From IMG/VR virus record IMGVR_UViG_3300015162_000002, positions 1 to 37,830 of that record: DNA of 37,830 nucleotides; one strand, 5' to 3'. The notes beneath the pieces were generated by a model that worked only from the letters and a program-made list of their open reading frames with translations, did not search any database and was not told where the DNA came from. A program made the position numbers and the translations under genes. Below, piece after piece: positions 11,590-36,034 of the stretch. Every line of letters starts with the position of its first letter. The first letter of the stretch is position 1. Source of the stretch: a virus.

Positions 11590-11599
11590 GCCTATCGTC
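11590..11599 (-). promoter_or_regulatory. Start-associated motif 1 (endolysin)
   Basis: Minus-strand GACGATAGGC followed by AGCCC and the GTG at 11584 (5-base spacing). This copy most closely matches the cluster K start-associated consensus GGGATAGGAGCCC that I recall. Confidence 0.8.
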
Positions 11600-11622
11600 T
11601 TAGGGGGCCGCGCGGAGCAGCC

Positions 11623-12270
11623 TCACGGCGTCGTCACCGTCACGACCTGCAGCCCGCTCGGCACGCTATGGAAAATCTGGTAGGCGAGGAGGAGCAGCGC
11701 TAGCACACCGACGAACGCGGCGAGCACGGCTCGCGAGTCGACGCCGCCTTGCTTGTTGCCTTCGCTCCGGTTCACGCGCTCCTTCAAATCATCTAGCTGG
11801 GTGACAAGACCCGCGATCGCCGTCGTGAACGTCGCCGACAGCTGCTTCAACTGCTCAGACGTCGACGCCTCGCTCTTCGCGATCGACAAGCCGGACGCGG
11901 TCGTCTGCTCCTTCACCGCCTCCTTCGCAGCGGCGAGCGCCGCGTCGACGGCGTCCTTGGTGTCTTTCTTCTGCTCGACCCTTTGCCGTTCGACGAGGTC
12001 GAACTGGGTGCCGACGGAGTCGAACCGCTCGTCCACCAGCTCCTTCACCTGGCCGACCTTCTCGTCGATCAGGTGTGGAACTTCCTCGACGCTGCGGAGC
12101 CGCAACGCGGTCGCCGTGTCGATCCCGTTTAGCCGCTCCGCGATCACCTTGATTTCGCCGTCGACGTAGTCGCGCTCCGACTTCATCGCGCGCTCGACCG
12201 CGTCGTTAGTCGCGACAGTCGGGTCGGGGTTCGGCTTCGTCCCCGGCGCGCTATCCATTGGCTCGGCCAT
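11623..12270 (-). CDS. Coiled-coil protein with C-terminal membrane anchor (215 aa)
   Basis: ATG 12270 follows the previous stop by a few bases. After a Pro-rich N-terminus, residues about 25-180 are heptad-rich (VERAMKSERDYVDGEIKV through LVTQLDDLKERVN). Near residues 185-205 is one membrane span (AVLAAFVGVLALLLLAYQIF). This layout is common next to actinophage lysis genes and may be a tail-anchored membrane protein, possibly a lysis accessory or a structural protein. No enzyme motif is visible. Confidence 0.75.
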   Translation of the reverse strand: MAEPMDSAPGTKPNPDPTVATNDAVERAMKSERDYVDGEIKVIAERLNGIDTATALRLRSVEEVPHLIDEKVGQVKELVDERFDSVGTQFDLVERQRVEQKKDTKDAVDAALAAAKEAVKEQTTASGLSIAKSEASTSEQLKQLSATFTTAIAGLVTQLDDLKERVNRSEGNKQGGVDSRAVLAAFVGVLALLLLAYQIFHSVPSGLQVVTVTTP

Positions 12271-12273
12271 CGG

Positions 12274-12387
12274 TTAGCGCCGGACGATCCAGATCAGCAA
12301 CGCGACAGCCGCAAGAACCGCCAACACAACCCAGAGCAGATCAGGAATAGCACCTGCGAACATGAACCCCTCCTCGTCGACGATCAC
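12274..12387 (-). CDS. Small single-pass membrane protein (37 aa)
   Basis: The open frame extends upstream to 12678, but the start-associated motif at 12394-12403 points to GTG 12387. The product MIVDEEGFMFAGAIPDLLWV continues with a hydrophobic span (VVLAVLAAVALLIWIV) and ends in RR. It is a single-pass protein with a short acidic N-terminus. It lies between a coiled-coil small protein and the 215-aa membrane protein, close to the lysis genes, and could be a second holin or antiholin; that is inference. Confidence 0.7.
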   Translation of the reverse strand: MIVDEEGFMFAGAIPDLLWVVLAVLAAVALLIWIVRR

Positions 12388-12393
12388 TGCGTT

Positions 12394-12403
12394 GCCTATC
12401 GTC
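12394..12403 (-). promoter_or_regulatory. Start-associated motif 2 (37-aa membrane protein)
   Basis: Minus-strand GACGATAGGC, then AACGCA and GTG 12387 (6-base spacing). It resolves the start inside a longer misleading frame. Confidence 0.8.
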
Positions 12404-12404
12404 C

Positions 12405-15090: not shown

Positions 15091-17982
15091 TCAGGGGCCG
15101 CCGTAGGCGACGAAGAAGTCCAGCGCCTCCTGGTTCGAGTTGAAGCCGCCGATGAGGTTCAGGTTGCTGTACGAGTGGCCGCCTCCGTCCACCTTGATCG
15201 TCTCCGTCGCCCGGTACGAGACAGTGCAGCCCGTATAGATCTTCTTGTGAAGAGGCAGCGGCGGCCCAGTCCCGTAGTCGAGGACAGTCGATGGTGTCCC
15301 GGAGCAGCCGATCCTCCGGCCGAACCCGACAGCCGAACCCGCCGACGTCGAAGGGGACGGCGGATTCGAATCGCCCGCGAGTTGCGGATCACCAAAATGC
15401 CAGCGCGCAGGCGACCCGGTGTCCTGGTAGCCAACGTCGAGGCAAGCCTGCGAGAACCCGGCCGGGCAGACGCCGCTGTCGTTGGTGCCGTACTCCCACT
15501 GGATCGACACGTTCGTGTTCGCGGCGAGCCCTGCCGCGCCACCAGCGACGTCGGTGAACCCGTTCGCGGTACCGAGGATCGCCGGACAGTTCGCGGGCGA
15601 GCTCTGGCTGCCTCCGAGCGGCCCGATCATCTGCGCGCTTGTCGCGTTGATCGCGGTGAAGTACGACGTGGTGCGCGTGTCGCAGATCAGGTCTTGGGTG
15701 AACGCGCCGCCCTTCGACCCGCCCGCGGCGTAGACGCGTGACGCGTCAATGTTTTCGCAAGGGGCGGCACCCGAGCAGATCGTCGCGTCGAGTACGGCCT
15801 TCACCCACGGTATGTCGTCGCAAAGCTTGTCGACGGTCGATCCGCACGTGTATTGCGGGCCGGGATTGTTGAGCAGCTTCGAGAGTGTGGTCGGGGTCGC
15901 GTACTGGCCGCTGTGGATCGGCGGGATGATGATCTCGACGTACTTGCCCGCGACCGTGCCGTTCCGGAACCCGGCGGTGTCGGGGTCGCCGGTCGAGTCC
16001 GCGAAGACGACGAGGAGCGGCGCGGCCCCGGTGAGGTTGTTCGGCCGATTCACCCAGTAGTTCCGGGTCACCGAGGTAGCGGGGGCGCCGTTCCAATCGG
16101 TGACGGTGATCGACTTGGTGACGATCGTCCCGGCAGTACACGGAGACGGCGAGCAGGTAGCTGTCGAAGCGCCGCCGGTGCCTGCCGCTGTCGCGCGCTG
16201 GTCCGCGCCCGCTTCCGCTATCGCGGCGAGCACGTCGCCGTCGAAGTCCGTCAGCGGGCACCCGAGCCCGATCGTCAGGTTCGCGCAGACGACATAGTTG
16301 TCCGCGGCACCGAGCGCCCCGGTCTTGTGCATGTCGAGACCCGTCGCCGGCGCAGCCGAAGGGTTCACCCATTCCGTGCTACCGGTCGCTGACCGTGCAC
16401 CGCACGGGCCAGTCGGGGTGGCCGTCGGGAAGACGTTGTAGTCGTAGTTGAAGGTGACGTTGGAGACGCCCGGAGCCCCGGACGCCGTGCACCCGATCGT
16501 TGCGAACGTCGTCTGGTTCTCCATCAGCATCGGCATGTCGTTCCCGTAAATGTTGAAGACGGTGCCGGGCTTGGCTCCGCTCCAGCCGATCATCAGCATC
16601 TGCGCGGGGCTTTCGTTGAATCCGACGTTCCAGGTGCCCGAGATCGTGTTCGTGCCGTGCCCGTCGATCGACAGGAACCCGTTGCACTGGCCGGCGATGT
16701 TCGTGCTCGTGTTGCCGACGATGTTGAAGTCGCCGTTGAACTCGTTCGCGAGCCCGGACGGCTGGATCTCGATGTCGGTGCACGCGTTCCCGTAGAACCG
16801 GTTCCGGAGAATGTCGATGTACTGCGCACCGAAAATCTGAATCGCGTCGGCGTGGCAGGCCGCGGCGTTGCAGATCGCTTCGGGTGCGGCACCGAACAGC
16901 GAGACCGGCCACTGTGCCGGGTCACGGAGGTCTGCGTACTGGAACAGGTTGTCGATGATCGAGTCGTGGCAAGCCTGGGTGCTGCATGAAGCGGTCGCGG
17001 TGGTCGGCTTCCCGATGCTCACAGCGACGGGGCTACCAGGGATCGAAAGGCCGCAGCAGGAGCCGCCGAAGATGTTGTTAGGCCCGATCTGCCAGTACTG
17101 CGCCTCGTGCAGGTTGATGAGCCTCGAGCCGCCGTCGAGTTTCCCGACGTCGATCTGGTTGTTCGTGAGCGTGACGTGCTGAGACTGAGCGGTTGAGATA
17201 CCGGCGCCGACGTCGTCGATGACGACGTAGTTGCCGCCACCGATGGTCTGGTAGCTGTTGAGCACGAACCCGTCCCAGGTGACCCACGACTGGCCGCGCA
17301 TGTCGATCGTGAACGTCGGCGTCGTCGCCTGGATCGTCGCGCACCCGTACGTTGCTGCCCGGAACGTCGTCATCCCGATCTTTGCTGCCGCGGAGAGCGT
17401 CTGCGCGTCATAGGTGCCGCACTTGAAGCGTACGAGGTCGCCGGCGGTAGCAGCAGCCTGGAAGGCCACGTTCGCGCTCGAGCAGGCCGCCGCGTCAACA
17501 TAGGCAGCACCAGCGCCACCAGTTCTCGTGCAGGTGCCGCCATTCTGGTCGACCCACAAGTTCGCGAGCCCAGGTGTGCTCCCGACGTTCGAGACAGCCA
17601 CCGACTTAGCCCTGGACGCTTTCGCGTTACCGGCGGCGTCCCTGCCGACCGCGGTCACGACATGGGTCGCGTTCGACACCGTCGTGGAATCCCAAACGAT
17701 CGAGAACGGGGCCGTCGTGTCCTCCGCACCAACCGGGGCACCGTCGACGAGGAACTGGACGCCGACACAGCCGACGTTGTCGCCGCACGTCGCAGCGAAC
17801 GTCACCCCGCCACCCGACACCGACGCCAGATCGTTCGGGGACGTCAGGAACAGCGACGGCGGCGAAAGGTCCGGCGTGTTCCCCGACCCGACGATCGCGA
17901 TCCCCGCCCCCGCAACGATCACGGCGGCGACAGACGCGATGATCGTCCCGTGCCTGCGCCTGATGACGCGACGGCGGGGCAC
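15091..17982 (-). CDS. Ig plus beta-helix plus esterase protein (963 aa)
   Basis: Order of parts: basic N-terminus and a hydrophobic segment (IIASVAAVIVAGAGIAIV, 14-31); an Ig-like domain (about 40-130, ending TAVGRDAAGNA); a right-handed beta-helix/pectate-lyase-like region (about 140-560, with many N/G turns); and a C-terminal alpha/beta hydrolase resembling feruloyl esterase or PHB depolymerase. In the last, the nucleophile elbow is AAGGSKGG, a likely acid region is EYGTNDSG, and a His is in GGGHSY. Many Cys pairs suggest an extracellular state. The start is GTG 17982, one base past the previous stop. It probably cleaves or deacetylates a surface polysaccharide. A membrane anchor is odd for a virion protein. 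Confidence 0.8.
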   Translation of the reverse strand: MPRRRVIRRRHGTIIASVAAVIVAGAGIAIVGSGNTPDLSPPSLFLTSPNDLASVSGGGVTFAATCGDNVGCVGVQFLVDGAPVGAEDTTAPFSIVWDSTTVSNATHVVTAVGRDAAGNAKASRAKSVAVSNVGSTPGLANLWVDQNGGTCTRTGGAGAAYVDAAACSSANVAFQAAATAGDLVRFKCGTYDAQTLSAAAKIGMTTFRAATYGCATIQATTPTFTIDMRGQSWVTWDGFVLNSYQTIGGGNYVVIDDVGAGISTAQSQHVTLTNNQIDVGKLDGGSRLINLHEAQYWQIGPNNIFGGSCCGLSIPGSPVAVSIGKPTTATASCSTQACHDSIIDNLFQYADLRDPAQWPVSLFGAAPEAICNAAACHADAIQIFGAQYIDILRNRFYGNACTDIEIQPSGLANEFNGDFNIVGNTSTNIAGQCNGFLSIDGHGTNTISGTWNVGFNESPAQMLMIGWSGAKPGTVFNIYGNDMPMLMENQTTFATIGCTASGAPGVSNVTFNYDYNVFPTATPTGPCGARSATGSTEWVNPSAAPATGLDMHKTGALGAADNYVVCANLTIGLGCPLTDFDGDVLAAIAEAGADQRATAAGTGGASTATCSPSPCTAGTIVTKSITVTDWNGAPATSVTRNYWVNRPNNLTGAAPLLVVFADSTGDPDTAGFRNGTVAGKYVEIIIPPIHSGQYATPTTLSKLLNNPGPQYTCGSTVDKLCDDIPWVKAVLDATICSGAAPCENIDASRVYAAGGSKGGAFTQDLICDTRTTSYFTAINATSAQMIGPLGGSQSSPANCPAILGTANGFTDVAGGAAGLAANTNVSIQWEYGTNDSGVCPAGFSQACLDVGYQDTGSPARWHFGDPQLAGDSNPPSPSTSAGSAVGFGRRIGCSGTPSTVLDYGTGPPLPLHKKIYTGCTVSYRATETIKVDGGGHSYSNLNLIGGFNSNQEALDFFVAYGGP

Positions 17983-17984
17983 CG

Positions 17985-18392
17985 CTACAGCTCGCCTTCG
18001 TATGCGATCTTGATGGTGAACCCGTCGACCGTCAGCGGACCGTTCGAGACCGCGTCATAGGCGACGCCTCCGCCGACGATGTCCTGGATCGCGACCAGCT
18101 TCGCGCCGCCGACCGCGGGGTCGTCCGTGGAGACGATGATCGCCACCGCGGTCGTGTCGGCCAGGCCGGGGAAGCTCATCGCGCCGCAGTCGATGGTGCG
18201 CGCCACACACGTCCGCCCCGTCGCGCTCAACGCCACCGTACCCGCCGTCTTCGTCAGCATCAACAACGTCATCGACGGGTCGACGTCGGCTTCGCCCTGG
18301 TCGCACTTCCAGAACCACAGCTTGTTCGCGGTCGGGAGACCGGCGAGACCCGAGTTGGTGATGAGGTCGACGCCCTCGTTGAAGTTCCGCAC
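17985..18392 (-). CDS. Hypothetical tail-region protein (135 aa)
   Basis: The chosen start is GTG 18392 (MRNFNEGVDLITNSG), nine bases after the previous stop; the longer frame overlaps the upstream gene. The protein is beta-rich with Ala, Val and Thr (LLMLTKTAGTVALSATGR, then AVAIIVSTDDPAVGGA) and ends FTIKIAYEGEL. It has several Cys. It is probably a small tail-tip or fibre-associated subunit by position between two tail genes. No family is recognised. Confidence 0.7.
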   Translation of the reverse strand: MRNFNEGVDLITNSGLAGLPTANKLWFWKCDQGEADVDPSMTLLMLTKTAGTVALSATGRTCVARTIDCGAMSFPGLADTTAVAIIVSTDDPAVGGAKLVAIQDIVGGGVAYDAVSNGPLTVDGFTIKIAYEGEL

Positions 18393-18400
18393 CCCAGCGC

Positions 18401-19342
18401 CTACGCCTTCGTGATCTTGATGTAGCCGGGTAAGTACGCCCCAACACCGCCGGTGCCTGCGATGATCGTGCCGTCTGCAACGCCACGCCACGCCCGCACC
18501 GAATACGTGTGTGCAGCAGCCGACGGAGTAAGCCGCCGCGACAGGCTGGCCGGGCTTACAGACCCCGCCGCAGCCGAGTTGATGAGGTCGCCAATCAACC
18601 CAATCGACGCGGCCCCGTCGTAGAGCGCGAACACGACCTCCGCCCCAACCGACGTCGCGAGGATGACCTTCGGCGTGAAGAACTCCACATTCACCGCGGT
18701 CGCCCCGTCGAAGGTGACAGCGGGCGCGGTCACGATCGTGTTCGCGGTCGCCTCCGTCGTCGCGGAGATCGTCACCGGAGCGGTAAACTCGGTGTAGGCG
18801 AGTTCGGTGCCAGGCGCCGGCGAAGCCAGTGTTAGCTTCGGCCGCACCGTCGTGTCGATGTTCGCGGTTGTGATCGACGCCGAAGCCGCCGGGATCAGAA
18901 TGTTCGCGAGGAGCAGCTGGCTGTTGCCGACCGCCGCGGCACCGGTCAGGTTCGCGAGCGTCGCCCCCGACGTCGCCGTGCCGGTGAGGATGATGAAGGC
19001 TTCGTCGTTGGCCGCGTCACCGTGGAACGCGTCCCTGACCCGCAACACGACCCGGTCTACCCTCGGCAGCGTCGCGTGCGACGCCGTGAACCCCGTCAGG
19101 TTCACCGTCGCGTCGTTGTAGGCCAGATACATGCCCTGGAACGCGACGCTGTCGCCCTGCACCAACGCCTTACCAGCCGCGATGTCGGTCGACATGTTCG
19201 CCCCCGCACCCCGCTGGGTCACGGCCATGTCGCCGGATCCCTGAACGCCTTCGGAAGTCAAGAGCGCCGAAACGAAACGGCGAAGGTCGAGAGAGGGCAT
19301 GTTCACCTGCTCCCAAGGGGCAGATGTCACGCTCAGCGCCAT
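18401..19342 (-). CDS. Minor tail / baseplate-like protein (313 aa)
   Basis: ATG 19342 has GGAG five bases upstream and overlaps the HNH gene stop. Residues about 35-170 match a common phage tail module: MAVTQRGAGANMSTDIAAGK, YLAYNDA, then PRVDRVVLRVRD and GNSQLLLANILIPA. The C-terminal half is a jelly-roll-like beta domain (FTAPVTISATTEATANTIV through YLPGYIKITKA). Such proteins form the lower tail tip of siphoviruses that infect actinobacteria. No enzyme motif is visible. Confidence 0.75.
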   Translation of the reverse strand: MALSVTSAPWEQVNMPSLDLRRFVSALLTSEGVQGSGDMAVTQRGAGANMSTDIAAGKALVQGDSVAFQGMYLAYNDATVNLTGFTASHATLPRVDRVVLRVRDAFHGDAANDEAFIILTGTATSGATLANLTGAAAVGNSQLLLANILIPAASASITTANIDTTVRPKLTLASPAPGTELAYTEFTAPVTISATTEATANTIVTAPAVTFDGATAVNVEFFTPKVILATSVGAEVVFALYDGAASIGLIGDLINSAAAGSVSPASLSRRLTPSAAAHTYSVRAWRGVADGTIIAGTGGVGAYLPGYIKITKA

Positions 19343-19896
19343 GCGAGCTCCTCAACCAGCCGAGTTCCCTTGCTCAGGTTGCAGAAGCCATGAGCGACAG
19401 CGATGTTGTCCTCGCTGTGAGCGCCGCCACGCGAGAGAGGCACGACGTGGTCGAAATGCAAGTCCGCGGGTTCCACCGGATCGCCGCAGAGATGGCACAA
19501 CATCTCGTCGCGCTCGCGGATGCGCTGATAGTCGACTCGGTCAACCGTGGCCGCGACCAGCCGCGCACGCCTTCGAGCACACTTCTCGCGGTGCTTCTCG
19601 GGATTCGCCTTGACCCACCGCGCACCCCGCGCCTTCGCAATTTCAGGATGCCGTCCAGCCCACGCCTTCCGGATCGCATCAACCTTGGAACGATTCCGCT
19701 CGTAGTAACGGCGGTTGGCATCAAGGACAGCAGTCTTGTTCGTGGCGTACCGCGTGCGCGCGTACTCCCTTGCATGGGCGTTGGCGCAGTCGCGACACCG
19801 CGAGCGCACTCCCAGCGACTTCCTCGCGTCCTTGTGGAAGGCCACCAGGGGCTTCGTCTCACCGCATTCGGGGCACGACTTGGCAGGGAGCGTCAT
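19333..19896 (-). CDS. HNH endonuclease inside the tail gene cluster
   Basis: This 187-aa protein has an N-terminal zinc ribbon (CPECGETKPLVAF ... CRDCAN), a long basic helical linker, and a C-terminal HNH core: CHLCGD, FDHVVPLSRGG, then SEDNIAV and FCNLSKG. The catalytic His is in DHVVPL. It is a free-standing homing-type endonuclease, probably mobile, inserted between the distal tail protein and a minor tail gene. The start ATG 19896 carries start-associated motif 3. Its stop overlaps the next gene by ten bases. Confidence 0.9.
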   Translation of the reverse strand: MTLPAKSCPECGETKPLVAFHKDARKSLGVRSRCRDCANAHAREYARTRYATNKTAVLDANRRYYERNRSKVDAIRKAWAGRHPEIAKARGARWVKANPEKHREKCARRRARLVAATVDRVDYQRIRERDEMLCHLCGDPVEPADLHFDHVVPLSRGGAHSEDNIAVAHGFCNLSKGTRLVEELAWR

Positions 19897-19901
19897 GCCC
19901 T

Positions 19902-19911: not shown

Positions 19912-19931
19912 CTAAGCCAGCGGCCCCGGCC

Positions 19932-25922: not shown

Positions 25923-25946
25923 TTAGAGTTCGCGCACTCGCGCGGG

Positions 25947-26756: not shown

Positions 26757-27772
26757 GCTACGACGACCTGGGAGCCGCGCTTGTATGGGGTCAGCAGCGC
26801 CCGCGCCTCGATAGGCAGATTCCTCGCTCGAGCCTCCGGGCCGGTGGACACGTCGACCTCTTCCGCGAACGTAAGTCCGCCTTCGATACCTGCGGCGTAC
26901 CCCGTCGGGTTCTCGTAGGCGTCCTTCACCGCGATCAGCACCGCGAGCTCGACGTCGGCGGGCACCGTGCCGATACCCCAGTCGCCGAGCACCGACACCT
27001 CGAAATCGAGCGGCGCGGTACGGCCGACGGGACCGTACGGGTAGGGGTTATTCCAGTAGGACGGGACGCCCTGAGCGGCGACACCGAAAGCGGCTTGCGG
27101 CAGCGTGATCCACTGCCACGTCCCCTCCGGCGACCGGTTCGGCGGGTGCAGACGGTACTCGCCCTGCACAGTCGAAGAGCCGCCCGAGAGCACCCGCTGG
27201 TTTGTGGTCGGGAGGTCGGAGTACATCGTGATCGACGTCAACGTCCGCAGCTCGTACGGCTCGAAACTGAGGAAGCCGCCGCCCGAATAGGTGAACTTCC
27301 GGGTGGCCGCGTTCGCCTGCGGCAACCATTCGCGGCGGGTGTACGCGTAGACGGCGGCGCTGTATGCGTTCCCGAGCCGGATCAGCATCGGATCCTGGCT
27401 GCCGTCGGTCGCGTCACGGAGGACGTATTCGCGCATCGCGCCGAGACTGGTCAGCGCGGTCGCTGCGAGCGCACCAGACGCCGCAACGTCGCGCCTGACC
27501 GAGAAGACAAACGGGACGGTCGCCGTGACAGCGCCGGTCCCGACGAAGTCGCCGAAGTAGTCGCCCACCTGCGTGCACGCGACGTCGAGATGGTAATTCC
27601 CGACCGAGTCCTTGACAATCTGGCCGGCCGTCACGGTGTAGCTCGCAATGGTGTTGTCTGGTGCGCGGACGGTCGCGGTGACCGCGGTCGGGTCAGCCAG
27701 CGTCTGCGCCGCGTCCTTGAAAACAGCGGCGATGGTTGCGATGTCGCCGGTGTCGTAGATGGTGACGGCCAC
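26753..27772 (-). CDS. Head-tail connector with N-terminal beta domain (339 aa)
   Basis: Residues about 1-95 are a small Ig-like beta domain (FKDAAQTLADPTAVTATVRA, then VSVRRD-like FVFSVRRDVAAS). From about 110 on is a gp6/gp15-like head-tail connector: LGAMREYVLRDA, RLGNAYSAAVYAYTRREW, then a beta sheet and DVELAVLIAVKDAYENPTG. It would bind below the portal. GTG 27772 follows motif 6 at 5-base spacing. The extra N-terminal domain is uncommon for this family. Confidence 0.8.
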   Translation of the reverse strand: MAVTIYDTGDIATIAAVFKDAAQTLADPTAVTATVRAPDNTIASYTVTAGQIVKDSVGNYHLDVACTQVGDYFGDFVGTGAVTATVPFVFSVRRDVAASGALAATALTSLGAMREYVLRDATDGSQDPMLIRLGNAYSAAVYAYTRREWLPQANAATRKFTYSGGGFLSFEPYELRTLTSITMYSDLPTTNQRVLSGGSSTVQGEYRLHPPNRSPEGTWQWITLPQAAFGVAAQGVPSYWNNPYPYGPVGRTAPLDFEVSVLGDWGIGTVPADVELAVLIAVKDAYENPTGYAAGIEGGLTFAEEVDVSTGPEARARNLPIEARALLTPYKRGSQVVVA

Positions 27773-27777
27773 GGTTC

Positions 27778-27787
27778 GCCTATCGTC
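27778..27787 (-). promoter_or_regulatory. Start-associated motif 6 (connector)
   Basis: Minus-strand AAAGGACGATAGGC, then GAACC and GTG 27772 (5-base spacing). It follows the stop of the 63-aa gene. Confidence 0.8.
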
Positions 27788-27789
27788 CT

Positions 27790-27981
27790 TTAGAGCAGGG
27801 TCACGGCGGCGGCATCGCGGACGTGGTCAGCGATCGAGGCCGACCCTTGCCCGTTCGATAGGGCAGCGGTGGCAGCGTCGCGGACGTGATCTGTGACGGT
27901 TGCGTAGCCGCGTGTCTGTGAGGAAGCTCCGGATGAGGCTTGGCCGAAGTACGCGCTGCCGTATGCGTTTGCGCCGAACAT
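27790..27981 (-). CDS. Small Gly/Ala-rich protein with internal repeat (63 aa)
   Basis: ATG 27981 overlaps the stop of the 14-codon mini-ORF (TGATG), with AAAGG upstream. It starts MFGANAYGSAYFGQASSG. Two near copies follow: TDHVRDAATAAL and ADHVRDAAAVTLL. The Tyr/Phe-Gly N-terminus is a pattern seen in small phage head or fibre accessory proteins. It sits directly after the 1244-aa fibre and may be its chaperone or an attachment peptide; that is inference. Confidence 0.65.
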   Translation of the reverse strand: MFGANAYGSAYFGQASSGASSQTRGYATVTDHVRDAATAALSNGQGSASIADHVRDAAAVTLL

Positions 27982-28025
27982 CAGACGCCGACCTTTCGAC
28001 TCGCTATCGGGTGGACGTAGATCAC
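27981..28025 (-). CDS. 14-codon mini-ORF between fibre and 63-aa genes
   Basis: GTG 28025 overlaps the fibre stop (GTGA), and its own TGA overlaps ATG 27981 (TGATG). The predicted peptide is MIYVHPIASRKVGV. It bridges the gap exactly and has the same 45-base length as the mini-ORF at 14123-14167. It may serve only to carry ribosomes on. Confidence 0.4.
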   Translation of the reverse strand: MIYVHPIASRKVGV

Positions 28026-31000
28026 GACACGCCCTCCCAGACCGCTATAGGCGATCCCGAGAAAATGATCGTGGCGTTCGTGGGAAGGTCGGTCTGGCCG
28101 GTCTGGACGCCATAAGCCCCCATACCAGATCCGATCGCTCCACTCGCAGCGGCCAACTTCGTCGCCGACGCGACAAACGGAAGTGTTGACGCCTTCGAGA
28201 TAACGGCGACGTAGTAGCCGTCGTCTGTCGGCACGGTGTACGGGGAGATCATGGCGGGATTCTTGATCCCGGTGGTCTGCCACGCTGTCCCCTGGTCAGC
28301 CGAGACAGCGAGTCGCGATCCGGCTTTGCTGTAAAGGCCGACCTTCGACAGCGTCACCGTCGCGCCTAGCGTGGCGACGACGACCGCGAGGTTGGCGACC
28401 ACTTCCCCGGCCAGCAGCGTGACCTTCATAAAGTACGCCGTCCCGTCGATCATGATCGTGGAGCCGTTAATCAGTTCGCGCGGGTACGTCTCCGTGATGA
28501 GTCCTTCGGCTACAAGTCCGACGTCGTATCTCGACTTCGGCCGTGACCACGCACCCGTCCCGTCCATGTAGTGGACTGCGTTGTTGTCGAGCTTCTTCAG
28601 CAGCCCGTGAAGGGCCGTGGTTGCGTTCAGCGTTGTGACGTCGGTCGGTGCGGCGAGCTCGTCGAGCTTGATCGCGTCCGAACCACCAGATTTGTGCTGG
28701 GTCGCGTGCGTCTGCGCTGCGACATCGGTGCCGATCACAGTCCCGGCCGCAGTCCGCATCGCGGGCGCGTCCGCGAGCGCCAGTAGTGAACGACCGAACG
28801 ACGTGGTGGAGAGCGCCGCGATCGCCGTCAGATCCGAGTCGACAGGCTGGGATGCCGCCTGCGCAGCAGCAGCCGCGCCCGCAGCGTCGAAGTCGCCGGT
28901 GTTGTTGACCGCCGCCGTCCCAAGTCCGGCCGCCGTACGCAACGCGGCGGCGTTCGCGAGTGCGAGCAGCGACTGGCCGAACGACGTCGTAGAGAGAGCG
29001 GCGATCGCGGTGAGATCGGAGTCGAGCGGTTGCGATGCAGCCTGGGCCGCGGCGGCCGCGCCTGCCGTGTCGAAGGCCGTTGCTGCGCTCGTCGCTGCGG
29101 TACCGAGACCGGCCGCCGTACGCATCGCAGCAGCATCGGCGAGCGCTAAAAGAGCGCGCCCGAACGACGTCGTTGTGAGAGCCGCGATCGCCGTCAGGTC
29201 GGAGTCGAGCGGCTGGAGGGTCGCGTCCGCCGCCGCCCGTGTCACGGCCTCCGCGGTAAGTGCGGCCTGCGTCGCGGTAGCTATCGAGTGGTCGGTGATG
29301 GTGCCCGTTCCGCCGGTGCCGGCCACGCCGTTGTAGAGCGTGTTGACGCCGAACAGTTCCACCGTCACCCCTGTACCGGCGAAGACGCCGTAGGTCTGGG
29401 TGGGGATCCCGACGAGCTCCTGCAACGCGAGATTCGTGAACGTCATCGTCCACCCGTTCGTCAAAGTCTGTCCGACGGTGTTGGAGAAGAACTTGACGAT
29501 GGCCGTAACGAACGCGGCGTCGGACGGGGCGGTAAACGCGAACGCGACATGGGTCGTCCCGGTCGTAACGGGTGCTGGCGTCGACCCGTTCTGGATGCCG
29601 TTCGTGGCAGCCGACCCGTCGGACTTGTAGAACCACAGCGATGCCACGGCGTTCGCGCCGGAAGGCGCGGTACCCAGAGCCGCATCTGCGACCATCTGGT
29701 AGAAGTGGCCCGGAGTGACCGCGACCCCGGAAACCCCTGTGGCGGTTCGTCCGACTGCGCCGGTCGAAGTACCGTTCGCTGTGACCGTGAGGACTGCGGC
29801 GGCCCCGGATACACCTGATGCGCCAGCAGCAGCCGACCAGCCAGCCAGCGTGCCTGTGTACGCGTTCGAGGGGAGCTTCTGCGCGTTCGACGGTGTCGCG
29901 TACGCGGGGACGTCGCCGAGGTTGCCGCCAACGATGAGGACGCGTTCGGGGAACCGGAACTCGGAGCCAGGCCCCACATTCGAGGTGGCCTCCGGATTGA
30001 TAAGGGTTATCAGTGATCCGACTGCGACGCCGGCGGTCATGAAGATGTCGTAGAAGCCGCGGCCCGCGCAGAGCACCGCCCGCGGGTTGACCAGGGTCAT
30101 GCCTGCCGCCACCTGATAACCGACCCCTGGGTTCGATCCGACGACACTGTGAAGCGACGTAAGGGACGCACCCGACACGTAAGCGTCACGGATGATGCAG
30201 CCGGGGAACGCGAAGTCGTTTCCGCCGATGCGTGTCCCTGAGCCGCCGCCGGTGACTCGCATCCGGTTGATCGTGACGCCGGACACCGATCCGGTCCCGA
30301 TGTTGTAGTTCGGAACCCACCCGTCGGCGCCGCCCTCGGCTTGCACCGAGTCGACGAGGATGTTCCGGATGGTGTTGTCGTGCGCGACGGTGTAGAACGC
30401 TGCGCAGGGAAAGCCTGAGTCGCCGTTCGCGTACGCCTCCAAGCAGTGGACGTCCTCGCTCGTTCCCGGCTGGGCGTCCATCTCGATCCGCAAAGCAACC
30501 CCGCCGTCGCAGGAGACACGCTCATACACGCATTGGCTGCCGGCGGTGTGCTGCACGCACGACGATCCGATACCGCGCACGTTCGAGTTGAAGATCGGGC
30601 CGACCGTGAACCGGCGGGCCTGTGCGCCGAGGCTATTCGCCCCGACCTGGAGCACGTTTCCTGTGGCGCCCGGCAGCCCGACACCTTTGAGCGACTCGAT
30701 CGACCAGTCCTGGCAGTTCAGCGCCATCACGCCGCGCGGCACAGTGTTCGTCGCTGGGATCGTCAACTCCGTCATGTCGATCGTGAGCAAACCGTGGAAG
30801 TGGATGTCCTCCAGGTACGACGTCGACGGTGACGCAGTCATCAGCCGGAACGGCGCCACGTTCGTCGTCTTGTAGTACGGCATCTTGAAGACCGCGCCGG
30901 GGCCGAAATACACGTTGGTGTGCGATTGGATGTACCAGTCCGCCAAGAAATAGGTGCGGACGCCGGGGAAGAAGAAGTCGCCCGCGCCGAGCGCGAGCAT

Positions 31001-31756
31001 GGCGGCGGTGTCGTCGGTCCCGTACACGCATGTCGCGCCCGTGACGGTCGTGGAAGCGTTTGTGTCCAAGGTCGCTACCCCACCCGACACCGACGAGATC
31101 GCCGCGATCAGCGTCATCGAGTTCGCCGGGTTGAGCGACCAGCCCTCCACGGCGAAAACCGCTTTGGCGGAGATAGCTCCGGCAGCAACATAGGTGACGC
31201 CGTTGTAGGTGACGAGGTCGTAGGCGGCATACGTGGCGGCGGGATCCCAGGCACCACGATTGTTGTACGCGGCGCCCGCACCGACGACCTGCACCCGCAT
31301 CCCGACATGCGCCTGCGTGAACGGTGTACCCGGCGACGACAATGCAGCGGCGCCAGAAGCGATTGCCGCGTCAGTGATCGTCACGACGTCGCCCTTCACA
31401 CCCCGGTCGAGAACATTCACCACGAGAGCTGCAAGACCGTCTTCGACGTCGGTCAGCGTCTTCGCGGTGATCGTCGCCGCGATCTGATCCCCGACACCGA
31501 TCGCACGCGCGCTCGAACCCTCCTGCGCCCGCACGATCGTAAACACGTCACCCCCAGGCGGACCCGCCGTCACCCGGACAACCTCAGCGTTCGACGCTAA
31601 AGGCGCCACACCCCTAGGCCACACCGTCGCGTTGAACGGGACAGCCGGAAACAGCGCACCACCACCCGCCTGCACCGTGAGCGACACACCCGACGACGCC
31701 GGTGAAGGCGCGGCCGCGACAGTCGAGTACGAGAAGTTTTTGTGCGCGTCAGGCAT
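28022..31756 (-). CDS. Large beta-helix fibre protein in the head module (1244 aa)
   Basis: The N-terminal ~130 residues (VSLTVQAGGGALFPAVPFNA) look like a virion anchor. A CBM5/12-like insert (AWDPAATYAAYDLVTYNG) and a right-handed beta-helix (about 240-620) follow, then a beta sandwich (about 640-780), then 2.8 copies of a 61-residue stalk repeat (about 846-1006, LDSDLTAIAALxTTSFG). The tail-fibre motif HKSGGSDAIKLDELAAPTDV and a beta C-terminal domain end it. ATG 31756 abuts the preceding TAG. It lies between capsid and connector genes, unusual for a tail fibre, so it may be a head fibre. No catalytic residues are claimed. Confidence 0.8.
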   Translation of the reverse strand: MPDAHKNFSYSTVAAAPSPASSGVSLTVQAGGGALFPAVPFNATVWPRGVAPLASNAEVVRVTAGPPGGDVFTIVRAQEGSSARAIGVGDQIAATITAKTLTDVEDGLAALVVNVLDRGVKGDVVTITDAAIASGAAALSSPGTPFTQAHVGMRVQVVGAGAAYNNRGAWDPAATYAAYDLVTYNGVTYVAAGAISAKAVFAVEGWSLNPANSMTLIAAISSVSGGVATLDTNASTTVTGATCVYGTDDTAAMLALGAGDFFFPGVRTYFLADWYIQSHTNVYFGPGAVFKMPYYKTTNVAPFRLMTASPSTSYLEDIHFHGLLTIDMTELTIPATNTVPRGVMALNCQDWSIESLKGVGLPGATGNVLQVGANSLGAQARRFTVGPIFNSNVRGIGSSCVQHTAGSQCVYERVSCDGGVALRIEMDAQPGTSEDVHCLEAYANGDSGFPCAAFYTVAHDNTIRNILVDSVQAEGGADGWVPNYNIGTGSVSGVTINRMRVTGGGSGTRIGGNDFAFPGCIIRDAYVSGASLTSLHSVVGSNPGVGYQVAAGMTLVNPRAVLCAGRGFYDIFMTAGVAVGSLITLINPEATSNVGPGSEFRFPERVLIVGGNLGDVPAYATPSNAQKLPSNAYTGTLAGWSAAAGASGVSGAAAVLTVTANGTSTGAVGRTATGVSGVAVTPGHFYQMVADAALGTAPSGANAVASLWFYKSDGSAATNGIQNGSTPAPVTTGTTHVAFAFTAPSDAAFVTAIVKFFSNTVGQTLTNGWTMTFTNLALQELVGIPTQTYGVFAGTGVTVELFGVNTLYNGVAGTGGTGTITDHSIATATQAALTAEAVTRAAADATLQPLDSDLTAIAALTTTSFGRALLALADAAAMRTAAGLGTAATSAATAFDTAGAAAAAQAASQPLDSDLTAIAALSTTSFGQSLLALANAAALRTAAGLGTAAVNNTGDFDAAGAAAAAQAASQPVDSDLTAIAALSTTSFGRSLLALADAPAMRTAAGTVIGTDVAAQTHATQHKSGGSDAIKLDELAAPTDVTTLNATTALHGLLKKLDNNAVHYMDGTGAWSRPKSRYDVGLVAEGLITETYPRELINGSTIMIDGTAYFMKVTLLAGEVVANLAVVVATLGATVTLSKVGLYSKAGSRLAVSADQGTAWQTTGIKNPAMISPYTVPTDDGYYVAVISKASTLPFVASATKLAAASGAIGSGMGAYGVQTGQTDLPTNATIIFSGSPIAVWEGVS
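28740..29220 (-). repeat. 183-bp coding repeat of the fibre stalk
   Basis: About 2.8 tandem copies of a 61-codon unit, each with LDSDLTAIAALSTTSFG-type and MRTAAGLGTAA-type segments. Period 183 bp with some divergence between copies. Such repeats form trimeric stalks and can change copy number by slippage. Confidence 0.8.
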
Positions 31757-31942
31757 CTAGCCGCCCGGCGCAACAGCCGCCCGCGTCTCACGCTTCTCGG
31801 CCTGCTTCTGCGCGACCGGTTCCGCGCTCCCCGCCTCAATCAGACGGGCACCTTCGGCAGCGTCGACATCGACGACTTCGCCGGCCTGCTGCGCGAACGC
31901 GTCACCATCGACGTAGCGTCCCTCAAGGAGTCTGACCTTCAC
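31757..31942 (-). CDS. Small head-region protein (61 aa)
   Basis: The motif at 31948-31957 sets the start at GTG 31942 (MKVRLLEGRYVDGDAFAQQA); the longer frame upstream has no support. The first ~45 residues look like a small beta domain (GEVVDVDAAEGARLIEAG), similar to small proteins near phage connectors, followed by a Lys/Glu/Ala tail. It lies between the 108-aa protein and the large fibre. Function unknown. Confidence 0.75.
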   Translation of the reverse strand: MKVRLLEGRYVDGDAFAQQAGEVVDVDAAEGARLIEAGSAEPVAQKQAEKRETRAAVAPGG

Positions 31943-31947
31943 ACGCC

Positions 31948-31957
31948 GCCTATCGTC
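31948..31957 (-). promoter_or_regulatory. Start-associated motif 7 (61-aa head-region protein)
   Basis: Minus-strand TTAGACGATAGGC, then GGCGT and GTG 31942 (5-base spacing). A GC hairpin-like CCCGT/ACGGG lies upstream near the previous stop, without a clear T-run. Confidence 0.8.
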
Positions 31958-32013
31958 TAAGAGCGACGGACGGGAGCGACGCAGTGACACGCCGCCCCCG
32001 TCTTCGGTACGGG

Positions 32014-32340
32014 CTAGGACTTCCTCGCCTTGCCGTACCGCTCGTCGAGCTCGTCCTCGCTGAGGAAGCCGTGGCTCGCCGCACGCGCGTCCTGCACGTC
32101 GGCGTACCAGCGGCCGTCCGCACCGAAATGCGGGTCCGTCATCGGCATGTGCTGGCCCGCACCGACGGCGAGAGCCCCCACCAGCGGCGTCTGCGGGCTG
32201 CCGCTCCTCAGCGGCGGATCCTCGTGCTCGGCGTCGAAGATGTCCGGACCGGACGTCTTGTCGGCCTCCTTCAGGCTCGACTCCGCAGGCTGCTTCGCCT
32301 CAGCGTGAGCCGGAACCGTTGCTGTCTTCGCTTCTGCCAT
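32014..32340 (-). CDS. Hypothetical head-region protein (108 aa)
   Basis: ATG 32340 has GAGAGGAGA upstream at good spacing. The first ~60 residues are Ala/Lys/Glu/Pro-rich and likely disordered. The rest holds PHFGADGRWYADVQDARAAS and ends LSEDELDERYGKARKS. It follows the major capsid gene directly, a place where capsid decoration or neck proteins are often found, but no family is recognised. It lacks the motif found before the next gene. Confidence 0.7.
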   Translation of the reverse strand: MAEAKTATVPAHAEAKQPAESSLKEADKTSGPDIFDAEHEDPPLRSGSPQTPLVGALAVGAGQHMPMTDPHFGADGRWYADVQDARAASHGFLSEDELDERYGKARKS

Positions 32341-32361
32341 ATCGTCAGTCTCCTCTCCGGC

Positions 32362-33636
32362 TTACGCCTGGGTCAGCTTTTTGACAGCTGCCGTGTTCAT
32401 CAGCTTCCCGTCCGTCCTGTGGTAGGCGCGGAAGCCGACCTGCCCGTTCGCGGCGTACAACTCGTTCAACCGCTGGAACGCGATGCCGTTGGCGTCACGG
32501 ATCCAGAAGTACGAGAAGTCGCCGAACAGACCCGAGATGGTGGCAGTCGTGAGCGCCGACGCCGACGCCATGTCGGGGTCGACGTAGACGGCCTTCCCGA
32601 GCAGCGTGTCCGGGGCGCCGGCGGTCAGGGCGGGCTGCCAGAGCGGCTGCCCCACCGACCCCGTGATGCCACGGATCCCCTTCACTGCCGCATCTCCGAA
32701 CACGAACACCGCGTTCCGCCGGTACGGCACGGACAGCGAGTGGAAGAGGCCCAGCAGGTCCGCGTACGTGATCGCGGTCGCGCCAGCCGTCGTCACACCC
32801 GCCGACGCCGACACGGTCACACCGAGCGGCTTCGACGAACCGTCACCGACCATGTACGCCGTGTTCTCGATGATCCCGATCCGGGACCCGAACTCGGTCT
32901 TGATGTACCCCTCGAGATCGAACCCGGAGTCCTGCAGCAGCTCCTCCGAGACGAGCATGATCGTCGCGGCCTTCCACGCGTTCAGCGTGGCCTGCCCGAA
33001 CACCTCGTCCCCGACCGTGAACGCCGCATTCTCCGCCGTCCACGCTGCCGCACCGTGCGACGTAATCGCCGGCACCTGCAACGCTGCGCCGGTGTCGGTC
33101 GAGATGACCTTCGAGATGTCGCGCATCACTCCGAAGAACCGGAGGATGTTGACGAGCTCCTTCTCGAACAGCGTCGGGACGAGGTTGAGGCCCGCACCCG
33201 CTGACGCCTTCGACAGGACACGATGCTCGTCCCCTGAGAGGGCGTGATCGTCCGACGAGGAGAGCCACTTGAAGAACGTCTTCCGGTACTCCGGCTCGTC
33301 CTGCGGCCTGAGACCGGCCGCGCGTGCCCGCTGCTCGCGGTACTCCGCGTACGTCTCCGGCTCGCCGCCGCCGCCATCACCGTCGCCGCCGGGCGGCTCC
33401 GGGGTCTCGGCGCCGATCTTCCGCGCCTCCGGCACCGGCTTGACGCCGATCAGCTTCTCCATCCGGCGTGCCCGCGTCTCGAACTCGTCGGCGGCCTTCT
33501 CCTTGCGGTCGAACTCCTGCGCCTCCTCGGCGGTCAGGTCGCGCTCCTCCGACTCCGCTTTCACGGTGAGGTCGCGCATCTCCTGGTACAGCTTCGCGCG
33601 CTCTTCGAGCAGCGCGTTCACATCTGTGACGTCCAT
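32362..33636 (-). CDS. Major capsid protein, HK97 fold
   Basis: The start is ATG 33636 (MDVTDVNALLEERAKL), with AGGAGA upstream and one base after the protease stop. The N-terminal ~75 residues are a charged coiled coil, the delta (scaffolding) domain removed by the protease. The rest matches HK97-type capsids: LVPTLFEKELVNILR, DTGAALQVPAIT, the GDEVFGQATLNAWK segment, SEELLQDSGFDLEGYI and YLYADPDM-like AVYVDPDMAS. 424 aa is normal for this family. A Gly-rich linker (PPGGDGDGGGGEP) lies near residue 90, probably close to the cleavage site. Confidence 0.95.
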   Translation of the reverse strand: MDVTDVNALLEERAKLYQEMRDLTVKAESEERDLTAEEAQEFDRKEKAADEFETRARRMEKLIGVKPVPEARKIGAETPEPPGGDGDGGGGEPETYAEYREQRARAAGLRPQDEPEYRKTFFKWLSSSDDHALSGDEHRVLSKASAGAGLNLVPTLFEKELVNILRFFGVMRDISKVISTDTGAALQVPAITSHGAAAWTAENAAFTVGDEVFGQATLNAWKAATIMLVSEELLQDSGFDLEGYIKTEFGSRIGIIENTAYMVGDGSSKPLGVTVSASAGVTTAGATAITYADLLGLFHSLSVPYRRNAVFVFGDAAVKGIRGITGSVGQPLWQPALTAGAPDTLLGKAVYVDPDMASASALTTATISGLFGDFSYFWIRDANGIAFQRLNELYAANGQVGFRAYHRTDGKLMNTAAVKKLTQA

Positions 33637-33637
33637 T

Positions 33638-34522
33638 TTAGGTCTCCTGTGCGTTGGGTTGACCAAGCGCACGAAGGCGACGCTGCCTAGCTGCGAGCCG
33701 GAACGGCACGCCCGAGACGTCGTCCTCCAAGGTGACCGTCACACGCTTCCCAGGGACAGCGGCCTGCAGCTCCGGCTCTTGGGAAGCAGCCCGGAACGCT
33801 CGCTCCGCGATCCACGGTGAGACGGTGCCCGTTCGTGCAAACGCGGCGTCGATCGACGCGCGCTCCTCCGCCGAAGCATGAAGATCGCCCCGGTGAATCT
33901 TCCAAGCGAGGTCGCGCAGAACACCCTCCTGCACCTCGCCTGCTACGACGAACTCGATGCCGCACACACTCGAGCGCATCGACACGTCCGTCTGCGCGTA
34001 CGCCGGGAACGTCACCGGCGACACGTCGTACAAGCCTCCGAACGACACGATCGTCCGCTCGACCGTCCCGTCCTCGTTCTCCGTCCACGTCTCGGTGCCG
34101 CCACGCATCGTGAACCCGAAGCTCATCTGCGACACGACGCCGGTCTTTACGAGCGTCCGCAGATCCGTCGCGACCGAGGTCGGTGCGAGCTCGGCGTAGC
34201 AGCGCAAACCCTTCGGGTCCTCGCGCAACTCGAGCGCGCCCGGCCCGTTCTTCACCGTCGACCTCGCGAGGATCAGGTCGGGGTTGTGGTTGAACAGGAA
34301 CCGGACGTCGGGGTCCTGCTCGAGCACTTTCCGGAACGCGCCCCGCTGGATCCGTTCACGGAAACCTCCCAAGTCCTCCGACCACCGGTCGAACACGGCG
34401 GCGTGACCGACGAACTGCATCTTCCCGCCCTCGTCGCGCACCTCGACCGCGTCGAACGCAGCCTCGCGACGCTCGACAGCCCCTTCCGGGACGAGCGGCT
34501 TCACAGCTTCGACGGCACTCAC
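33638..34522 (-). CDS. Prohead protease (S78 family)
   Basis: This 294-aa HK97-type prohead protease has the core MQFVGHAAVFDRWSEDLGGF, then FLFNHNPDLILA with catalytic His79, and SQMSFGFTMRGG with the Ser nucleophile at 131 or 134. It removes the delta domain of the capsid protein encoded next. The C-terminal ~100 residues extend beyond the protease fold and are acidic then basic. The start is GTG 34522, five bases after start-associated motif 8. An ATG two bases upstream is out of frame. The stop is one base from the capsid start. Confidence 0.95.
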   Translation of the reverse strand: MSAVEAVKPLVPEGAVERREAAFDAVEVRDEGGKMQFVGHAAVFDRWSEDLGGFRERIQRGAFRKVLEQDPDVRFLFNHNPDLILARSTVKNGPGALELREDPKGLRCYAELAPTSVATDLRTLVKTGVVSQMSFGFTMRGGTETWTENEDGTVERTIVSFGGLYDVSPVTFPAYAQTDVSMRSSVCGIEFVVAGEVQEGVLRDLAWKIHRGDLHASAEERASIDAAFARTGTVSPWIAERAFRAASQEPELQAAVPGKRVTVTLEDDVSGVPFRLAARQRRLRALGQPNAQET

Positions 34523-34527
34523 ATGCC

Positions 34528-34537
34528 GCCTATCGTC
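34528..34537 (-). promoter_or_regulatory. Start-associated motif 8 (prohead protease)
   Basis: Minus-strand TAAGACGATAGGC, then GGCAT and GTG 34522 (5-base spacing). It lies between the portal stop and protease start and decides the GTG over an out-of-frame ATG. Confidence 0.8.
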
Positions 34538-34541
34538 TTAG

Positions 34542-35849
34542 CTAGACGCGGGACAGCCCGTCTGCGGCGTCGACGTGGCCGTTCGCGCGCGCTGACGGAT
34601 CGTCTCCCGGCGCAGGCCCGTCCGCGGGAGCTGCCGTGTCGGCTGGTGCTGCTGGTGCGCCCGCCGGCATCGGCTCGTCATCGCCCCACGGGACAGGCGG
34701 CAGATTCTCCTTCTCACGGATCTCGTTCGTCGTCATCGCCTTCACCGCCTGCATCCCCTGGTAGTACGCCACACGCGAATTCGAATCGCCGCGCAACAAA
34801 CCCTCCGACAGAAACTCCGGCCACAGATCCGAGCCCGCCGGGAACAGGTCGTCGTCGGCCCGCAACGTGTTCTCGATCCTGACCAGCCAATGGTTCAGCG
34901 AGTACACCTTGAAGTGGATCGACATCGACTCCACGTTCGCGTACGTGATGCTCTTGTTCCGCTCACCACCCAGCATCTCCGGCGGGATCTGGAAGATCCG
35001 GGCGCACTCGTTGACGTCATGCACCTTCTGCGCGATGTACTGCTGATCCTGGAGCGACATCCCCGTCGTCTGCCACGTCACACCGTCCTCGAGCACCGCC
35101 ACACGGCCCGCGTTCTGCGAGCCCCGGTGCGCAGCCTCCCACGACGCTTTCAGCTTCTGCGCCGCCTCATCCGACAACGTCCCCGCGACCTGCAGCACTC
35201 CGCCCGGTGACGCACCATTCGCGTAAAACCGGGCCAGATACTCGTCGCGGCCGAGGATCGCGCCCAACGTCTGCCGGTGAACCTGGATCGGCGACAACCC
35301 CTTCAAACCGTCATACCCGAACGCCTGCCCATGCACGATCGTCGACGCATCGAACCGGCCATTCACGTCCGCGATCTCGAACACCTTCGCCCCCGACGCC
35401 TTATCACGGCACACCGTCACCCGCGACGGCGAAATCGGCCACAACGCGTGAATGCGCCGACCCGACGGCACACGCGGATCCGCGACGAACTGCTTCTCCA
35501 AATAGAAGTTCCCCCACAGATTCAGGTGCCCCATCAACGTCTCGTAGAACAAGTCCGCAGGCATCTCCGGGTTCGGCTTCCGCTTCAGCAGCTCCCACTG
35601 CCACGCATCCGTCGCCCGCTCACGCGCCTGCGTGTCGCCGCGGTACACCACCATCGGCAGACCACCGACCTGCGTCGACAACAAACTCACCGCCGCATAC
35701 ACACCGGTGATCCCAACACTGATCTGCGGCGACACCGGCTTCGCCGACCACGTCGGCTGACCCGCCCAGCTATCCCACAACCAGTCCGGCGGCTCCGAGA
35801 ACGTGGAACGCTGCTCGAGCCCCTCCACCAGCCGCGTCAACAGACTCAC
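34542..35849 (-). CDS. Portal protein, HK97 type
   Basis: This 435-aa portal shows VYAAVSLLSTQVGGLPMVVY near the start, FYETLMGHLNLWGNFYLEK, GLKGLSPIQVHR, ARFYANGASPGGVLQVAGTL and QDQQYIAQKVHDVNECARIF followed by IPPEML. These are classic phage_portal family segments. It would form the dodecameric ring at one capsid vertex. GTG 35849 overlaps the stop of the small membrane protein (GTGA). The C-terminal ~50 residues are Pro/Ala/Asp-rich and probably disordered. Confidence 0.95.
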   Translation of the reverse strand: MSLLTRLVEGLEQRSTFSEPPDWLWDSWAGQPTWSAKPVSPQISVGITGVYAAVSLLSTQVGGLPMVVYRGDTQARERATDAWQWELLKRKPNPEMPADLFYETLMGHLNLWGNFYLEKQFVADPRVPSGRRIHALWPISPSRVTVCRDKASGAKVFEIADVNGRFDASTIVHGQAFGYDGLKGLSPIQVHRQTLGAILGRDEYLARFYANGASPGGVLQVAGTLSDEAAQKLKASWEAAHRGSQNAGRVAVLEDGVTWQTTGMSLQDQQYIAQKVHDVNECARIFQIPPEMLGGERNKSITYANVESMSIHFKVYSLNHWLVRIENTLRADDDLFPAGSDLWPEFLSEGLLRGDSNSRVAYYQGMQAVKAMTTNEIREKENLPPVPWGDDEPMPAGAPAAPADTAAPADGPAPGDDPSARANGHVDAADGLSRV

Positions 35850-36016
35850 GGACCCCGCCTAACCGGGCGCGCCACGAAATACGCGCACACCGACGCGAGA
35901 ACGCCCGCAAGCATGACCCCGGCCGGGAGATAGACCAGGCCGGCACCCACCGCGACAGCGGCGAGCCCGGCGAGGAACACGGCAGTGGTGAGCAGCGATT
36001 CCAGCCATGAAGGCAT
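35846..36016 (-). CDS. Small membrane protein between terminase and portal (56 aa)
   Basis: This gene is easy to miss. ATG 36016 follows motif 9, and the stop overlaps the portal start (GTGA). The product MPSWLESLLTTAVFLAGLAA continues through two hydrophobic spans (to GLVYL, then PAGVMLAGVLASVCAYFVA) and ends RPVRRGP. A membrane protein here is unusual in the packaging module, though similar small hydrophobic proteins are encoded between TerL and portal in some actinophages. Function unknown. Confidence 0.75.
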   Translation of the reverse strand: MPSWLESLLTTAVFLAGLAAVAVGAGLVYLPAGVMLAGVLASVCAYFVARPVRRGP

Positions 36017-36024
36017 CTACCGTC

Positions 36025-36034
36025 GCCTATCGTC
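36025..36034 (-). promoter_or_regulatory. Start-associated motif 9 (56-aa membrane protein)
   Basis: Minus-strand GACGATAGGC, then GACGGTAG and ATG 36016 (8-base spacing), in the short gap after the terminase stop. It identifies an unannotated small gene. Confidence 0.75.

Follow-up and report, generated by a model that had tools for sequence, protein, structure and literature searches.

The stretch analyzed here, hereafter the window, is the whole 37,830 bases of the uncultured virus record IMGVR_UViG_3300015162_000002 (G000), whose minus strand carries a head-tail module comprising the large terminase, portal, protease, major head protein, connector-like and tail proteins, and which probably derives from a temperate phage, since an integrase lies near its other end. 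Along this minus strand, a ten-base motif, GACGATAGGC, recurs a few nucleotides (nt) before the start codons of late genes, and this motif and its counterparts in other phages are our subject. The copies and the genes that they precede, with gene starts picked by simple rules on open reading frames (ORFs) and third-position GC content (GC3) or by hand, are as follows (aa, amino acids):

36025-36034, minus strand: motif copy 9, 8 nt before the ATG of a 56-aa membrane-protein gene (35846-36016; phrog_502) that precedes the portal gene
34528-34537, minus strand: motif copy 8, 5 nt before the GTG of the head maturation protease gene (33638-34522; phrog_80)
31969-32002, minus strand: stable hairpin directly upstream of motif copy 7 (z -3.2)
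31948-31957, minus strand: motif copy 7, 5 nt before the GTG of a 61-aa head-tail connector-like gene (31757-31942; weak connector matches)
27778-27787, minus strand: motif copy 6, 5 nt before the GTG of a head-tail adaptor-like gene (26753-27772; phrog_442)
25913-25922, minus strand: motif copy 5, 5 nt before the GTG of a 61-aa gene (25722-25907) that precedes the minor tail protein gene
24709-24718, minus strand: motif copy 4, 9 nt before the ATG of a 64-aa gene (24505-24699)
19902-19911, minus strand: motif copy 3, 5 nt before the ATG of an HNH endonuclease gene (19333-19896; PF01844)
12394-12403, minus strand: motif copy 2, 6 nt before the GTG of a 37-aa ORF (12274-12387)
11590-11599, minus strand: motif copy 1, 5 nt before the GTG of a gene (10973-11584) with weak lysozyme or endolysin matches

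A previous reading of the letters without database searches (the sequence-only reading) had reported nine minus-strand copies at these places, all in gaps and 5 to 9 nt before a start codon, six of them at exactly 5 nt, with none in the early operon, and each of these statements was borne out. A scan of both strands of the whole window, allowing up to one mismatch, returned nine exact minus-strand copies of GACGATAGGC and no one-mismatch or plus-strand copy; the distances to the start codon, from copy 9 to copy 1, are 8, 5, 5, 5, 5, 9, 5, 6, and 5 nt; all nine copies are intergenic; no copy lies below position 11,590; and none is in the early region. Dinucleotide shuffles (n = 100) gave a mean of 3.29 matches and a maximum of 7, so that none reached nine, and GACGATAGGC is the sole 10-mer with more than five occurrences on the window minus strand. 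Start codons lie 17 to 71 nt from the upstream stop codon for eight of the nine motif genes, and the gap of 249 given by the program for the copy at 27778 had skipped a 63-aa ORF ending at 27790. For the remaining late genes of the window, the start mostly overlaps or directly adjoins the upstream stop codon, or an ordinary Shine-Dalgarno sequence serves it. Rfam families were searched for in the window and none was found.

The nearest relative provides a comparison that owes nothing to the motif, since this virus (IMGVR_UViG_3300010371_000076, stretch L265; hereafter G001) was fetched via its portal protein (70% identical). G001 carries eight copies of a variant word, AGCCGATAG, all on the same strand, and all eight pair by position with window copies (pairs set by hand from protein matches), leaving only the window copy at 11590 unpaired. 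Identity across the eight pairs is 87.5% in the ten motif columns versus 31% in the 30 nt upstream, and the single column with no identity at all (0/8) is position 2, which is A in every window copy and C in every G001 copy. The word has thus changed in concert at conserved sites, as expected if one reader serves all copies. Hence, the sequence-only reading's proviso that the motif should be conserved in related phages, and should not occur in the other orientation, agrees with what was found, as neither the window nor G001 has a copy in the other orientation. In G001 one gene follows the motif directly, and in the window the HNH endonuclease gene (19333-19896) separates its counterpart from the motif; the HNH insertion thus appears to have captured the start signal, and the mark seems tied to the site and not to any single gene. 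Elsewhere in the late region, a 1244-aa tail-fibre-like gene (28022-31756) lies between the connector-like and adaptor-like genes of the window, and in G001 the adaptor-like gene comes after the connector-like gene across a short gap, without this gene between them.

Phages beyond this pair were sought with an IMG/VR scan for the pattern GCCGATAGGC-N4,5-CGTG, which matched at least 120 loci. Among the 120 loci listed, 13 had at least two start-linked copies on one strand and 7 had at least three, versus 3 and 1 (with three copies) among 120 listed loci for a shuffled control word in an equivalent scan; when exact words were counted, 11 listed loci had multiple copies and 4 had at least three, versus 2 and 0 for the control. 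Two of these 13 multi-copy loci, L310 and L302, are stretches of G001 and L391, respectively. Eleven loci selected by the motif were kept for having at least two start-linked copies (L390, L391, L403, L414, L427, L442, L476, L490, L494, L495, and L499; L390 and L391 were first found in separate motif scans, among the matches listed), giving, with the window and G001, a set of 13 records, while nine loci with two start-linked copies each (L410, L472, L343, L339, L273, L229, L218, L190, and L124) were left out as probable chance. Invariance of the core outside the window and G001 is a product of selection, because the search pattern fixed CGATAG.C; free to vary there were the count of further copies at each locus, the R, G, and G that flank the core, and the gene context. 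The kept loci carry two to six copies each, mostly in head and tail modules, and are very diverged, with no protein pair above 50% identity to the window where related. Against 22 late window proteins (one of which, the 37-aa ORF, was mis-framed), L390 gave no match, and L499 had no window match in the protein comparison. Known phages gave no DNA match to window positions 12000-36500, and their protein matches were all below 60% identity (the best 48% among the matches listed). No paper on the motif as such was found by title among the matches listed, a literature outside which most subscription journals fall.

The same gene starts are marked across these diverged phages. Head protease genes start at the motif in seven of the seven phages where they were identified (window, G001, L391, L403, L442, L476, and L494), a 60- to 71-aa gene before the minor tail protein is marked in four of four (window, G001, L494, and L495), and a small gene before the portal is marked in five (window, G001, L403, L442, and L490); the portal itself is marked in L476, and neither the portal nor a small preceding gene is marked in L391. 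Major head protein genes carry the motif in one of the seven phages where they were identified (L494), and large terminases in none of the five seen, some of which lie near contig ends. Relatives of the window terminase (L233-L257; 43-67% identical, some on short contigs) had no coding-strand CGATAGG, and repeats in L248 and L253 were set aside since they look evenly spaced and lie inside coding sequence.

Taken over 53 copies in the 13 records, the consensus is R-G-[CA]-C-G-A-T-A-G-[GA]-C-G, about 11 to 12 nt, usually followed after 5 to 9 nt by ATG or GTG; written with a 5-nt spacer and a GTG start, the signal is GCCGATAGGCG-N5-GTG. A start codon stands 4 to 10 nt downstream of every one of the 53 same-strand [AC]CGATAG[GA]C copies (5 to 7 nt in 47), a count for which 11 of the 13 records were themselves chosen by such copies. 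These start codons are GTG in 33 cases and ATG in 20, and 51 of the 53 open an ORF of at least 50 aa, the other two having 37 aa (window) and 10 aa (L442). No reverse-strand G[AC]CGATAG[GA]C occurs in the 13 records, and no column is conserved in the 45 nt upstream of the 53 sites. The gaps are tight: of the 51 copies for which an upstream gene was found, 35 have their start codon at most 40 nt past its stop, and in 23 the motif start falls between 3 nt ahead of the end of that stop codon and 12 nt past it. The AGG part is altered to AGA in six copies. A motif hairpin, GCC-GATA-GGC, was considered and rejected, as it is not kept in the window version (GAC...GGC) or in the GATAGAC copies.

Position alone would suggest a Shine-Dalgarno sequence, and AGG does lie within most copies at the usual place. 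The motif differs in that it conserves bases beyond the pairing part, and Shine-Dalgarno-like leaders coexist with it in the same phage. With starts picked by hand and the anti-Shine-Dalgarno tail of the host assumed, the nine window motif genes score -4.6 to -7.3 kcal/mol (two of them scored 2 to 3 nt off their start), with no stronger pairing to the 16S 3' tail than their neighbors, so the earlier remark that these genes lack a normal Shine-Dalgarno sequence holds under the same assumptions. Six late genes follow a gap without carrying the motif, and four of these score -8.0 to -13.5 kcal/mol (32340, 27981, 15069, and, less certainly, 17982).

Among described elements, the closest are the start-associated sequences (SAS) of phages, to which the sequence-only reading had likened the motif. 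The likeness to the cluster K SAS, GGGATAGGAGCCC (TM4 and Adephagia), stood in part. According to the portions of PMC3203893 available, that sequence is likewise asymmetric, nearly invariant, and mostly in one orientation; both elements lie a few nt before start codons (3 to 9 in the papers), both are conserved at homologous genes, and GATAGG sits at a similar distance. Scans recovered 9 sites within two mismatches of GGGATAGGAGCCC in TM4 (positions 1-49999) and 17 in Adephagia (10001-59646), with a start codon 2 to 8 nt downstream in 8 and 16 of these, respectively, while the same search found no copy in the window or G001 and one match each in L391, L390, and L403 among the other 11 records (start codons unchecked). 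Conversely, [GA][AC]CGATAG[GA]C occurs twice on the reverse strand of each of TM4 and Adephagia within the scanned stretches (start codons unchecked). The likeness failed on consensus, gene class, gap length, and upstream context: our motif lacks the AGGAG Shine-Dalgarno core, the CCC end, and the extended SAS (ESAS), whose inverted repeats stand upstream of about half of the cluster K copies and have no counterpart in the 45 nt upstream of our 53 sites; it marks mostly structural genes (head, neck, tail, and endolysin-like), mostly in short gaps and mostly with GTG (33/53), whereas the same portions of PMC3203893 place the cluster K SAS in the non-structural half, in gaps mostly above 50 bp, with ATG in 80 of 93 cases; and it spans very diverged phages rather than one cluster. 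AGCCC does follow copies 1 and 4, as had been pointed out, and we take this as chance because the spacer is variable and AGCCC is one base closer in the cluster K sequence. A second family, in Microbacterium phage cluster EF, is described in the available part of PMC7302621 as GGGAAAGGACCCC, ten unusually conserved copies at the ribosome binding site position; compared by that description only, it has another consensus, all of its copies are ESAS-linked, and it belongs to one phage cluster, while its GAAAGG is the equivalent of GATAGG, for a shared core GA(T/A)AGG. The role of SAS has been termed unknown or ill-defined since 2011 in what was accessible of these reports (PMC3203893; PMC11373665; PMC12699233). 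As far as can be judged from the DNA, therefore, the motif works like an SAS, yet its consensus, gene class, gap length, and lack of an ESAS keep it outside the SAS proper.

We consider the best explanation, with slightly better than even confidence, to be an mRNA-level start signal for late genes, SAS-like and with its own consensus, which is also the first of the functions that the sequence-only reading had proposed; we favor it because of the place of the motif, its partial exchange with Shine-Dalgarno sequences, and the tight gaps. On the late mRNA, the motif would take the place of the Shine-Dalgarno sequence as a near-invariant word and would let ribosomes start late genes uncoupled from the preceding gene. 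The word is more invariant than base pairing to the 16S tail would require, and within a phage its copies have all changed in step; from this we infer a trans-acting reader, which might be a host or phage protein or a modified ribosome. Several observations weigh against this reading. No reader gene was identified, and the evidence is drawn from sequence. The exchange with Shine-Dalgarno is not clean: coupled and early window genes scatter from about -2 to -12.6 kcal/mol, and by the chosen starts the terminase gene (37549; +2.0) and the gene at 14122 (-5.3) have neither motif nor Shine-Dalgarno. Shine-Dalgarno pairing is slight, and pairing with E. coli 16S or 23S rRNA, a candidate mechanism, was no better than in shuffles (E. 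coli may not be the host; longer rRNA matches in L523-L528 were left uncounted, as these loci include about 1.5 kb of flanks). The spacer to the start codon is GC-rich, unlike usual ribosome binding site spacers, and the motif is only slightly more unpaired than shuffles (mean 0.41 versus 0.39, with 33 of 53 sites above). To these are added two terminator-like hairpins, which also form the strongest case for a promoter.

That alternative, absent from the sequence-only reading, is a live rival, although we judge it rather unlikely: the motif would be a -10-like late promoter with transcription starting at or near the start codon, and motif genes would need no Shine-Dalgarno sequence because their mRNAs would be leaderless. 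A -10 element whose start site is the first codon base would fit the short distance to the start, and the window motif genes are indeed without a good Shine-Dalgarno sequence. In L391, a strong terminator-like hairpin after the head protein gene (16194-16219) ends 11 nt before the motif, and in L494 another, before the head protein gene (2331-2358), ends 28 nt before it; stable hairpins likewise precede the connector-like gene of both the window and G001, as well as a further gene of L494. Should these hairpins be true terminators, transcription would have to begin anew no more than a few tens of bases downstream, where nothing but the motif is conserved; the alternative to such a restart would be antitermination. 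A candidate here is a 147-aa helix-turn-helix (HTH) protein of the window (4963-5406) with weak matches to Sigma70_r4 (E 0.0071, below its cut-off), to phage transcriptional regulators (phrog_4779, E 0.00021), and to a late-activator family (E 0.045); among PHROGs it matches an HNH endonuclease best, and its C-terminal part is HNH-like. The -10 box of sigma-28 (GCCGATAA) resembles GCCGATAG. Leaderless mRNAs of Actinobacteria have promoters with a conserved box, TANNNT, a few nt before the start codon and no Shine-Dalgarno sequence; the motif is alike in its place and in the missing Shine-Dalgarno, and differs in having no -35 element and a box unlike TANNNT. Indeed, a -10 box with a -35 box was not found: the 45 nt upstream of the 53 sites hold no conserved -35 or other element, the motif has no T at the usual last position of the sigma-70 -10 box, and no sigma-70-like site was found at the motif in window positions 17900-37830, a stretch that holds copies 3 to 9. 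Gaps of at most 40 nt in 35 of 51 copies also speak against a promoter, as does the finding that the scanned window ORFs include no confident sigma factor or RNA polymerase (some small ORFs fall outside that scan). In cluster K, further, the putative promoters are separate from the SAS and lie upstream, in the ESAS that precedes some copies (as far as PMC11373665 was accessible).

A DNA site for a phage or host regulator, either a stoperator-like repressor site or a late activator site that stands at gene starts incidentally, is improbable. Stoperators of L5 and cluster A phages are short asymmetric repeats in gaps and in one orientation, a description that fits our motif equally well, and the window does encode an HTH_3 protein for which G001 shows a DNA match of about 70%. 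A roadblock to transcription, however, does not need a start codon 4 to 10 nt downstream in 53 of 53 cases, no copies lie in the early half of the window, and an operator word common to phages with so little protein identity would be surprising. The motif thus differs from stoperators in its fixed, short distance to the start codon, on account of which the stoperator that the sequence-only reading had also put forward is disfavored, and in its restriction to late genes in the window. L5 stoperators are mentioned as a contrast to SAS in the accessible part of PMC3203893. The HTH_3 protein itself (8742-9083) is a candidate repressor or regulator.

Still less probable is an RNA processing site, at which an endonuclease would cut the late polycistronic RNA to yield messages with a short leader or none. 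Its support, besides an exact conserved word in short gaps, comes from L494, where, within 5138-5227, a tRNA-Ser gene ending at 5222 lies among late genes with the motif from 5227 before a head-tail adaptor-like gene, so that a cut would leave a short leader. No nuclease candidate is tied to the motif, and the 53 upstream regions share no common structure (z below -2 in 8, mean z -0.49). Finally, chance, composition, or the functionless spread of a small repeat is hardly credible, given that, although short words do recur in GC-rich DNA and the shuffled control also gave 3 multi-copy loci among the 120 listed versus 13 for the real word, all nine window copies are exact and the conservation of eight of eight window-G001 sites with near-random flanks already contradicts it.

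The host suggested by the records is a member of the Actinomycetota, because of a PF06737 domain, which we take to be linked to actinobacterial Rpf proteins, a GC content of 64-70% in the 13 records, and the hosts of known SAS phages. This transglycosylase-like domain lies at the contig end of the window (85-744), and a similar stretch was read in G001 (80% DNA match over 69 bases). Searches of genome contigs by major capsid protein confirmed none of 52 candidate stretches, and those by large terminase confirmed 1 of 27, L509, on a contig of a Gemmatimonadaceae metagenome-assembled genome (MAG), with no GATAGG or GATAGA on its coding strand; L509 may be a phage contig binned by mistake. Across 298 genomes of the phylum of this MAG, 52 matched motif plus start, at 58 places versus about 82 for a reversed-pattern control (hand count), and with fewer matches than the control there is no sign of host motif use in that phylum.

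Together, these comparisons describe a third, simpler SAS-like family, without ESAS, that supplies a minimal word (about 11 bases) together with a rule for its spacing and a set of records to compare, and with these a translation signal can be tested directly against a leaderless promoter. More tentatively, and as a possibility that we hold to be less than probable, the motif could be a shared late-gene start code, in which many phages not otherwise related, from one uncultured, probably actinobacterial, host group, use one word that a dedicated mechanism other than Shine-Dalgarno reads, a factor conserved in the host or widespread among phages redirects ribosomes to late messages, and the cluster K and EF SAS are dialects of a GA(T/A)AGG code. 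If the motif is truly a translation signal, it would give phages a route to choose the messages on which ribosomes start without Shine-Dalgarno pairing.

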